Assembly: GCA_011364985.1 (NCBI GenBank)
Contig: RDOC01000005.1
Coordinates: 1-64,000 of the forward strand
Source: Candidatus Thorarchaeota archaeon
GTDB lineage: Archaea > Asgardarchaeota > Thorarchaeia > Thorarchaeales > Thorarchaeaceae
DNA: 64,000 nucleotides
Direction of reading: 5' to 3'
Made by a program: the position numbers and the translations under genes. This document shows, piece by piece, positions 18,628 to 23,033 of the stretch; the stretch's first letter is position 1; every line of letters begins with the position of its first letter. The notes beneath the pieces are model-generated. The model was not told the DNA's origin. It saw only the letters and a list, made by a program, of their open reading frames with translations, and did no database searches.

Positions 18628-18966
18628 ATGGGCAAGGAAAAAATACTTGGTGCATTGATATTCATCTTCGCATTGTTGGTGCTTATATACTACACATGGG
18701 CACTGGTTCTACTTGAGAATGGCTTAACCGGCCCTGGACTAGCTGCCTGGGTGGAATCGCTGGTTGGAACTGAGGGACTATGGCATGATATCTTGCTTCC
18801 CGACAGAATGTTCCTAATCATTCTGCCAATCTGGGCAGCTGCTGTGCTAATCATGGTTATTGCAATGTGGATCGGTTGGACCATGCTAACCACTCCAGCT
18901 CCAGAGCCACTTGAAGACTTTGACTTTGATGAGGAAGAAGTTTCAGAGACAAAGCCAGAGGAGTAA
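18628..18966 (+). CDS. Two-helix membrane protein resembling DPM2
   Basis: A 112-residue protein with two membrane helices (about 6-29 and 61-86). The pattern resembles DPM2, the small eukaryotic subunit that stabilises dolichol-phosphate-mannose synthase in the ER: a first helix ending LIYYTWALVLL, a lumenal loop, then ILLPDR just before a second helix beginning with a hydrophobic-x-Pro element (LIILPIW) and ending in WTML, as DPM2 has YYTAWVILL, FLPR, IP and VMLK at the same places. The loop is about 15 residues longer, and the tail (from about 90) is acidic and Pro-rich. AGAGGT at about 18613-18618 is a plausible ribosome site. No DPM1-like transferase is adjacent. The assignment rests on recalled sequence and needs a profile search. 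Confidence 0.5.
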   Translation: MGKEKILGALIFIFALLVLIYYTWALVLLENGLTGPGLAAWVESLVGTEGLWHDILLPDRMFLIILPIWAAAVLIMVIAMWIGWTMLTTPAPEPLEDFDFDEEEVSETKPEE

Positions 18967-20515: not shown

Positions 20516-21874
20516 CTATGCCAAGTCAATGGCTTGGTGGATGAAATCCGCACCCAGCTTGACAAGACGCTTAGCCTCTGCCTGTGTCTTGCCTTCTGCA
20601 AAGCATCTCCAGAGGGGTTCTGTTCCAGAGGGTCTCATTAAGACCCAACCTTCATCAAATACTAGCTTTACGCCATCCAGAGTAATACGGTTCTGATCCT
20701 CTGTAAGCTGTAGTAGTATATCGAGAATCTTGCTCTTCTTCTCAGACGGAACTTGGACCTTTGTTTTGTTACTGAAGTAGGTCGGAAGCTCGGCAACAAG
20801 TTGGGAAAGAGTCTTTCGCTCAACAGCCATTACTTCAACAATTTGTGCTGCTGTCATTGGCCCATCACGCACGGATTGATGCGGAGGATAGAACACGCCT
20901 CCGTTTTCCTCGCCACCGAGATCTGCTCTCAGCTCCTCCAGTTTGTGAGAAACAACGACACTACCAACAACGGTCCACTCAATCTTTGCGCCCGCATCTT
21001 TCGCGACATCTTCAATAAGACGCCCGCTACTAATGGGTGTTACGAGAGTAGAGTTTAGCCTTCTCCGTAACACACGAGAAGCAATAATGGCGAAAGACTG
21101 GTCGCCCCAGAGCACTGCACCATTCTCGTCCACAAATGTTGCGCGATCAGCATCTCCGTCATGGGCAATTCCAATATCTGCATTTACTGCCTTGACTGTT
21201 TCACTTAGCTCGGAAAGGTTCTGTGCAGTTGGCTCTGGAGGCCGTCCCGGAAATGCACCGTCCAGCTGAGAATTAAGGGAAATGACCTTGCAACCAAGGT
21301 CACGCATTAGTTCAGGTGTGGCCAAAGCGCCAACGCTGTTGGCACTGTCTACAACAACTACTAGCTGAGCCTTGTGGATTTCGCCTTCATTCACATGCCG
21401 TTTGATTCCGGCAATATACTCCCGGAGGGCTGTTTCATATCTCTGGTTCTTGCCCACCTTATCCCATGTGCAAATCTTGAATTCTCTGTTGAAGTAGCAG
21501 CCTTCAATCTGCAGTTCGACTTGGCGTGAAACCTCGATTCCATTGGCACCCATGACCTTGATACCATTGAACTCTCCGGGATTGTGGGAAGCAGTGATCA
21601 TGATTCCTGCGGCAGCATTGAGTCGAGGGACCATGAACTGCAGTGTAGGAGTGGGGGCCGGTCCGATATCAATCGTATGGCATCCAGTAGACAGTATTCC
21701 AGATACAGCAGCGTTTAGGAACATCATTCCACCCCTTCGCGAGTCACGCGAAACAACAACTCGACCAGGTCCAAGGATTGTACATGCAGCCCGTGAGATA
21801 TTTAGAACCATCTCTACGGATAGGTCTTTATTGATAGTCCCGCGTACTCCATTTGTACCGAAGAGGTGTCCCAT
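20516..21874 (-). CDS. glmM: Phosphoglucosamine mutase / phosphohexomutase
   Basis: A 452-residue alpha-D-phosphohexomutase. The phosphoserine loop is TASHNP at 94-99 (Ser96), the Mg2+ site DGDADR at 239-244, the sugar-binding loop GEENGGVFYPPH near 315, and the phosphate-binding RPSGTEPLWR near 418. The N-terminus FGTNGVRG is the GlmM/archaeal PMM form. It interconverts hexosamine-6-P and -1-P (or mannose/glucose forms), feeding UDP-GlcNAc or GDP-mannose for glycan and lipid-linked sugar synthesis. Archaeal members are often bifunctional, so the exact sugar is open. It starts a two-gene unit with the acyltransferase and is divergent from the TPR gene. Confidence 0.9.
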   Translation of the reverse strand: MGHLFGTNGVRGTINKDLSVEMVLNISRAACTILGPGRVVVSRDSRRGGMMFLNAAVSGILSTGCHTIDIGPAPTPTLQFMVPRLNAAAGIMITASHNPGEFNGIKVMGANGIEVSRQVELQIEGCYFNREFKICTWDKVGKNQRYETALREYIAGIKRHVNEGEIHKAQLVVVVDSANSVGALATPELMRDLGCKVISLNSQLDGAFPGRPPEPTAQNLSELSETVKAVNADIGIAHDGDADRATFVDENGAVLWGDQSFAIIASRVLRRRLNSTLVTPISSGRLIEDVAKDAGAKIEWTVVGSVVVSHKLEELRADLGGEENGGVFYPPHQSVRDGPMTAAQIVEVMAVERKTLSQLVAELPTYFSNKTKVQVPSEKKSKILDILLQLTEDQNRITLDGVKLVFDEGWVLMRPSGTEPLWRCFAEGKTQAEAKRLVKLGADFIHQAIDLA

Positions 21875-22521: not shown

Positions 22522-22598
22522 AAACGTGTAACACACTTCACAAGGTTTAAATGACATCTACCTCGACACAACATAGCTTAGTGTGGTCATTGGCCACG

Positions 22599-22605
22599 TT
22601 ATATA
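22599..22605 (+). promoter_or_regulatory. TATA-like box for the uS19 gene
   Basis: TTATATA lies 18-24 bases before ATG 22623. Archaeal TATA boxes usually sit about 25 bases before the transcription start, so the message would begin at or just inside this ATG. That implies a leaderless transcript, or use of the in-frame ATG at 22644. Confidence 0.5.
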
Positions 22606-22622
22606 CCATCTCAGGTGATTAC

Positions 22623-23033
22623 ATGTCCTCAAAGAGCGAACCCATGTATCGCGGCTACAAGCTCTCTGATTTGGTCCAGATGAACATGGATACACTGATT
22701 GAGCTGCTTCCCTCACGTAGGAGAAGGACTCTCAGGCGAGGCCTTCCACAGCGTCAGAAGAAACTCCTCATGAAACTCAGAGCGGCTCGCAAGGCCAAGA
22801 AGAAGGGAAAAGACATCATTGTCAAGACACATTGCCGCGACATGGTCATTCTTCCGGAGATGGTCGACCTCACGATCGGAGTCCACAATGGCAAGGAGTT
22901 TGTCAAGGTTAAGATACTGCCGCAGATGATTGGGGAAGTATTGGGATCGCTCTCGATACCGACTCGACAAGTCAAGCATGGCAGCCCTGGTATAGGCGCG
23001 ACAAAAAGCAGCGCTTACGTGCCTCTAAAATAG
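22623..23033 (+). CDS. rpsS: 30S ribosomal protein uS19
   Basis: A 136-residue archaeal/eukaryotic-type S19 (S15e). The N-terminal YRGYKLSDL, the RRRRTLRRG segment, KTHCRDMVILPEMVDLTIGV and the C-terminal conserved HGSPGIGATKSSAYVPLK, which contacts 16S rRNA and the decoding-region head, are all present. The reading frame is open to 22551; ATG 22623 fits the nearby TATA box. In most archaea rpsS lies in the L3-L4-L23-L2-S19-L22-S3 cluster; here no ribosomal gene flanks it. Confidence 0.94.
   Translation: MSSKSEPMYRGYKLSDLVQMNMDTLIELLPSRRRRTLRRGLPQRQKKLLMKLRAARKAKKKGKDIIVKTHCRDMVILPEMVDLTIGVHNGKEFVKVKILPQMIGEVLGSLSIPTRQVKHGSPGIGATKSSAYVPLK

Follow-up and report, generated by a model that had tools for sequence, protein, structure and literature searches.

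A small gene in a 64,000-nucleotide stretch of Thorarchaeota DNA (this whole stretch is called the window here) encodes a two-helix protein whose core appears to share common ancestry with two eukaryotic proteins, DPM2 and PIG-P, jointly rather than with DPM2 alone, a conclusion that is well supported by the sequence comparisons. The reading that we favor, at a probability of roughly 0.55, is that this hairpin is an ancient membrane subunit of lipid-sugar glycosyltransferases, itself non-catalytic and kin to the ancestor of DPM2 and PIG-P. In eukaryotes, these two proteins link two large lipid-sugar pathways of the ER, those of dolichol-phosphate-mannose and of GPI anchors, and the widespread archaeal relative would be the pre-eukaryotic form of the DPM2/PIG-P part. 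The role of the hairpin thereby becomes testable in culturable archaea that have no ER and no detected GPI pathway or DPM3.

The gene is a full frame with an ATG start and a TAA stop, and its product has MGKEK at the N-terminus, followed by two hydrophobic helices and an acidic tail. Its features, together with the neighboring gene discussed below, are as follows.

18628-18966, + strand: ORF of the two-helix DPM2/PIG-P family, 112 aa (ORF list, homologues, Pfam matches to DPM2 and PIG-P)
18634-18723, + strand: helix 1 by prediction (residues 3-32); it opens with the [D/E]K..G signature and contains Y21-Y22-T23 (AlphaFold2, conservation)
18688-18696, + strand: YYT motif, residues 21-23, aligned with Tyr23-Tyr24-Thr25 of human DPM2 (joint alignment)
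18796-18807, + strand: LPDR segment, residues 57-60, directly before helix 2 (sequence, alignments)
18805-18891, + strand: helix 2 by prediction (residues 60-88); it holds Pro67 and AMWIGWTM, the conserved core (AlphaFold2, conserved columns)
18889-18918, + strand: tail after helix 2, TTPAPEPLED, a signature of this family that PIG-P has in part (human STSPLDSIHT) (alignment)
20516-21874, - strand: archaeal GlmM (phosphoglucosamine mutase), second gene downstream and a recurrent neighbor (TIGR03990 at 535 bits, cut-off 439; conserved linkage)

The ORF is confirmed as a genuine gene of a conserved archaeal family. Homologous loci in other archaea number 37, at 43-88% identity with one at 36%, and nearly all have a full frame; 34 of the 37 lie on contigs with Asgard names, the closest being those of Thorarchaeota (82-60% identity). 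The AlphaFold2 model has long helices at residues 3-32 and 60-88, with high confidence within the helices (block-mean pLDDT of 84-95 for residues 1-30). Thus, in size and predicted topology, the protein matches the DPM2 layout of ~80-110 aa, two TM segments, and little else. A Foldseek search with this model gave a single meaningless match (E=7), and no DPM2 or PIG-P chain was found when the PDB was searched with the sequence of the window protein, its alignment, or human DPM2.

The original prediction had rested on a set of DPM2-like motifs, and each of them can be found: YYT spans residues 21-23, LPDR residues 57-60, and TML residues 85-87, and Pro67 lies near the beginning of helix 2. The Arg of LPDR and the first Tyr of the YY pair, however, are not conserved. 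In the alignments, most near relatives have PDP, and across the family, 29 of 36 archaeal rows keep the second Tyr and 5 keep the first. Gly8, Pro67, and Met86 are widely conserved, and the positions common to most archaeal members, human DPM2, and human PIG-P include Gly8, Tyr22, Pro67, Met86, and Thr89.

When the window protein is compared with Pfam by hmmscan, DPM2 (PF07297) is indeed the first match (E=7.5e-5), but its 23.4 bits lie under the curated cut-off of 27.3. PIG-P (PF08510) comes second, with E=0.0027 and 18.0 bits against a curated cut-off of 39.3. Two hydrophobic helices and a short loop might resemble one another without common descent, and an older Pfam PIG-P model has given convincing yet false matches to two-TM proteins (PMC2912341); both this precedent and the sub-cut-off DPM2 score of the window protein by itself speak for a chance likeness. 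Given the published false matches, a control with unrelated two-TM proteins was needed. Among 42 such archaeal proteins, none has a DPM2 or PIG-P match at E<=0.0059 (best 25 of 29 families), and the pattern that could have undone the original prediction, the same likeness in unrelated two-helix proteins, is thus absent from this set.

The family as a whole gives a stronger signal. At E<=1, Pfam DPM2 matches 30 of 31 near relatives and PIG-P matches 17 of the 31. Members in 23 of 227 Asgard genomes exceed the DPM2 cut-off, compared with 0 of 14 control genomes, and the best family member reaches 44.8 bits (L091). PIG-P is matched at E<=0.001 in 55 of the 227 Asgard genomes and in none of the controls; its cut-off of 39.3 bits is passed in 0 of the 227, the best score seen in the family being 38.2 bits. 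Among the distant members where DPM2 tops at 44.8 bits, PIG-P reaches 37.1 bits. The comparison also holds in reverse. An HMM built from about 60 archaeal members, with eukaryotes excluded, recognizes human PIG-P at 36.3 bits and human DPM2 at 33.6 bits (Pfam recognizes the two human sequences used at 149 and 108 bits). Not one of 40,000 shuffles of these human proteins that retained their hydrophobic layout attains the real scores. With a narrower HMM, made mainly from Thor relatives, DPM2 is still separated (0 of 20,000 shuffles score as high), PIG-P less clearly (11 of 20,000). Chance likeness is therefore very unlikely: hydrophobicity-keeping shuffles fall short, unrelated two-TM proteins do not match, the DPM2 cut-off is passed in 23 Asgard genomes, and G8, Y22, P67, M86, and T89 coincide in human DPM2 and PIG-P. 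That an archaeon has a true homologue of DPM2 is thus borne out by profile matches in both directions.

A specific DPM2 orthologue is not supported, since the family is about equally close to PIG-P, its tail is more like that of PIG-P, and the tree places neither human protein. The window protein resembles DPM2 in its size, its two-helix layout, the opening [D/E]-x(3)-G, a YYT within the first helix, a Pro early in the second, and an M-L end, and members of the family score as high as 44.8 bits. It differs from DPM2 in its longer loop, in an extra conserved acidic tail (TTPxPxPxE), in its score of 23.4 bits where 27.3 would be required, and in coming from a genome without a detected DPM3. With PIG-P, the family shares the two-helix layout, M-x-x-T after helix 2, the opening of helix 2 in several Asgard members, YWA(L/V)A(I/L)P, and a tail nearer to that of PIG-P than to that of DPM2. 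However, the archaeal family lacks the longer C-terminal part of PIG-P, it passes the PIG-P cut-off in 0 of 227 genomes, and in 12 Asgard genomes neither PIG-A nor PIG-H is matched above its cut-off. A tree inferred by maximum likelihood from 36 archaeal sequences and the two human ones has very long branches and places neither DPM2 nor PIG-P; consequently, no claim is made about the closest archaeal lineage.

The family profile finds a member in 184 of 227 Asgard genomes, among them 40 of the 45 high-quality ones, nearly always in single copy, and in 307 of 398 Thermoproteota genomes (the profile search covered these two groups). The Thermoproteota members carry the same core, for example GAWIGWTMATTPPPKPIEE, and score up to 35.2 bits for PIG-P and 28.8 bits for DPM2. 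The family is thus common in Thermoproteota and not Asgard-specific, and its presence across Asgards and many Thermoproteota implies that this part of the ER machinery predates eukaryotes, as has in part been published in 2025-26. One study lists DPM2 and PIGP as the outcome of a duplication before LECA, with an archaeal origin and a date of 2.88-2.06 Ga (PMC12872463, Nature 2025), and an Asgard origin has been claimed for the GPI-GnT complex (PMC12872458, Nature 2026); a proteoarchaeal origin of Dpm1 had been suggested in 2016 (PMC4973528). The core claim about origin is therefore not new. The present analysis adds the precise family, its extension into Thermoproteota, the signature, and the evidence from partners and neighbors; no account of the Thermoproteota-wide distribution, the family signature, or the gene context was found in the open-access papers that were searched.

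Some Asgards carry unusual forms of the hairpin. In genome G179, a 181-aa protein (L304:568-1113, + strand) joins two DPM2-like hairpins in tandem (39.9 bits for DPM2), an arrangement that recalls the pair of TM hairpins in the type III P. furiosus enzyme discussed below. Second paralogues are found in the f8 Asgards (L305:4438-5487, L306:4191-6089, L308:6085-11116), and these have higher scores for PIG-P than for DPM2. An assignment of the f8 pair as DPM2 plus PIG-P is not supported by the scores: the second copies favor PIG-P, but so do some canonical copies. A split into DPM2-like and PIG-P-like copies may already have begun in some Asgards with two paralogues.

How such a hairpin could work is suggested by known systems. 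The type III dolichol-phosphate-mannose synthase of P. furiosus has two fused TM hairpins, described as DPM2-like (PMC5526996), and there, as proposed here, two-helix units serve a GT2 catalytic domain (PDB 5MLZ); in that enzyme, however, the hairpins are fused to the catalytic protein, whereas the hairpin of the present family is a separate gene. Human DPM2 has two helices, of which helix 1 is required for association with DPM1, according to a statement in PMC10154465 that cites Maeda 1998. Phe21 and Tyr23 of this helix are required for DPM1 binding (PMC10154465). The loss of DPM2 lowers activity about tenfold, and the human protein is also associated with GPI-GnT (PMC7728079). By analogy, the archaeal protein would fit a role as a membrane hairpin, encoded by a gene of its own, that serves glycosyltransferases acting at the membrane. 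In this model, its helices would bind the membrane side of a glycosyltransferase that faces the cytosol, hold and stabilize the enzyme at the membrane, and aid in the presentation of polyprenyl-phosphate or another lipid acceptor. Like DPM2 in eukaryotes, the family probably has more than one client among the lipid-sugar transferases. The orientation of the hairpin in the membrane, its physical partner, its stabilizing role, and the acceptor are all presumptive elements of this model.

The suggestion that the hairpin supports a lipid-sugar glycosyltransferase comes from gene context. Sugar-nucleotide enzymes (GlmM, phosphoglucose/phosphomannose isomerase, GlmS-type SIS proteins, and sugar-1-phosphate nucleotidyltransferases) account for 18 of the 277 genes within two genes on each side of the hairpin, compared with 8 of 1624 background genes taken from more distant genes and random Asgard stretches. 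The corresponding Fisher p=3e-10 is far too optimistic, because related loci were counted and the categories picked once some neighbors had been seen. In a rough grouping into about 28 lineages, eight show the enrichment versus a 2% chance each. These neighbors recur in separate branches of both phyla, Asgard and Thermoproteota, and the identity of GlmM is firm across loci (NCBIfam TIGR03990, 535-567 bits). Several observations count against the subunit reading. The window protein itself falls short of the DPM2 cut-off in Pfam. In the examined loci, the two genes on either side of the hairpin include no GT2, the searches for PIG-A and PIG-H revealed no specific partner in 12 Asgard genomes, DPM3 has no match in the source genome, the hairpin is kept in genomes with few or no GT2 proteins (G192, G186), and the commonest neighbor in Thermoproteota is AdoHcyase (S-adenosylhomocysteine hydrolase; 22 of 38 loci), which has no obvious tie to glycosylation.

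The source genome of the window (1.70 Mb, 74% complete) contains two GT2 proteins without clear TM helices. The closer of these has 35% identity over 236 aa to human DPM1 and matches the P. furiosus synthase at E=3.5e-40. Both lie within a glycan gene island that includes apparent further glycosyltransferases, a flippase-type polysaccharide-biosynthesis protein, and a nucleotidyltransferase. Thus, of the two partners that the original prediction called for, a TM-less DPM1-like protein is present in the same genome, and a DPM3 homologue was not detected there. The DPM1-like GT2 (G000:C11:319658-320329, - strand) is a likely client of the hairpin in this genome. It is also the basis for a narrower proposal, in which the hairpin would act exclusively as a DPM2, joining this GT2 in a type II dolichol-phosphate-mannose synthase as its second subunit. 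DPM1-like matches at E<=1e-25 are found in 111 of 227 Asgard genomes, and YYT aligns with the Tyr23 of human DPM2 that DPM1 binding requires (PMC10154465). Tyr23 corresponds to Tyr21 of the window protein, the first Tyr of the pair, and Phe21 to Leu19. However, this first Tyr is not conserved family-wide, although the next one is. Furthermore, the hairpin and GT2 genes are not neighbors, the source genome has no detected DPM3, and by our own tally about 14 of 40 high-quality hairpin-bearing Asgard genomes have no DPM1-like match at E<=1e-25; in G192, which is 93% complete and has the hairpin, there is no GT2 at E<=1e-6. The presence of the hairpin in good genomes without a DPM1-like GT2 indicates that a DPM1-type enzyme is not its sole or obligate partner, and an exclusive DPM2 function is considered unlikely. 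A GPI-GnT-like complex was also looked for, and the Pfam models for PIG-A and PIG-H gave nothing over the cut-off in 12 Asgard genomes, although distant forms are possible; the methods of PMC12872458 differ from this Pfam search and are probably more sensitive.

Another proposal accepts homology to DPM2 and PIG-P but gives the hairpin another job, for instance as a membrane partner to a lipid acyltransferase, to a DUF1616 protein, or to a methylation-linked enzyme. The second paralogues of the f8 Asgards (L305, L306, L308) adjoin or lie near a PlsC-type acyltransferase (PF01553). In one Thermoproteota locus (L294:7367-8305, + strand), a DUF1616 domain (PF07760) lies upstream of the hairpin in the same frame, which may reflect a gene fusion, and in one Asgard lineage (L098, L099), a DUF1616 gene is two genes away. 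The AdoHcyase gene sits immediately upstream of that for the hairpin, in the same orientation and with 57-81 bp between them, in the 22 Thermoproteota loci (among L259-L298). Each such link, however, is confined to one or two branches, whereas the sugar-nucleotide neighbors recur in both phyla, and a function of this kind seems improbable.

Other genes near the hairpin were also noted. An apparent prenyl-diphosphate synthase gene, like DUF1616, is found near it in single lineages. In the window, an apparent gene for ribosomal protein uS19 (22551-23033, + strand) lies ~4 kb from the hairpin gene, and in many Asgard loci the cluster of this gene lies no more than 5 kb away from the hairpin.
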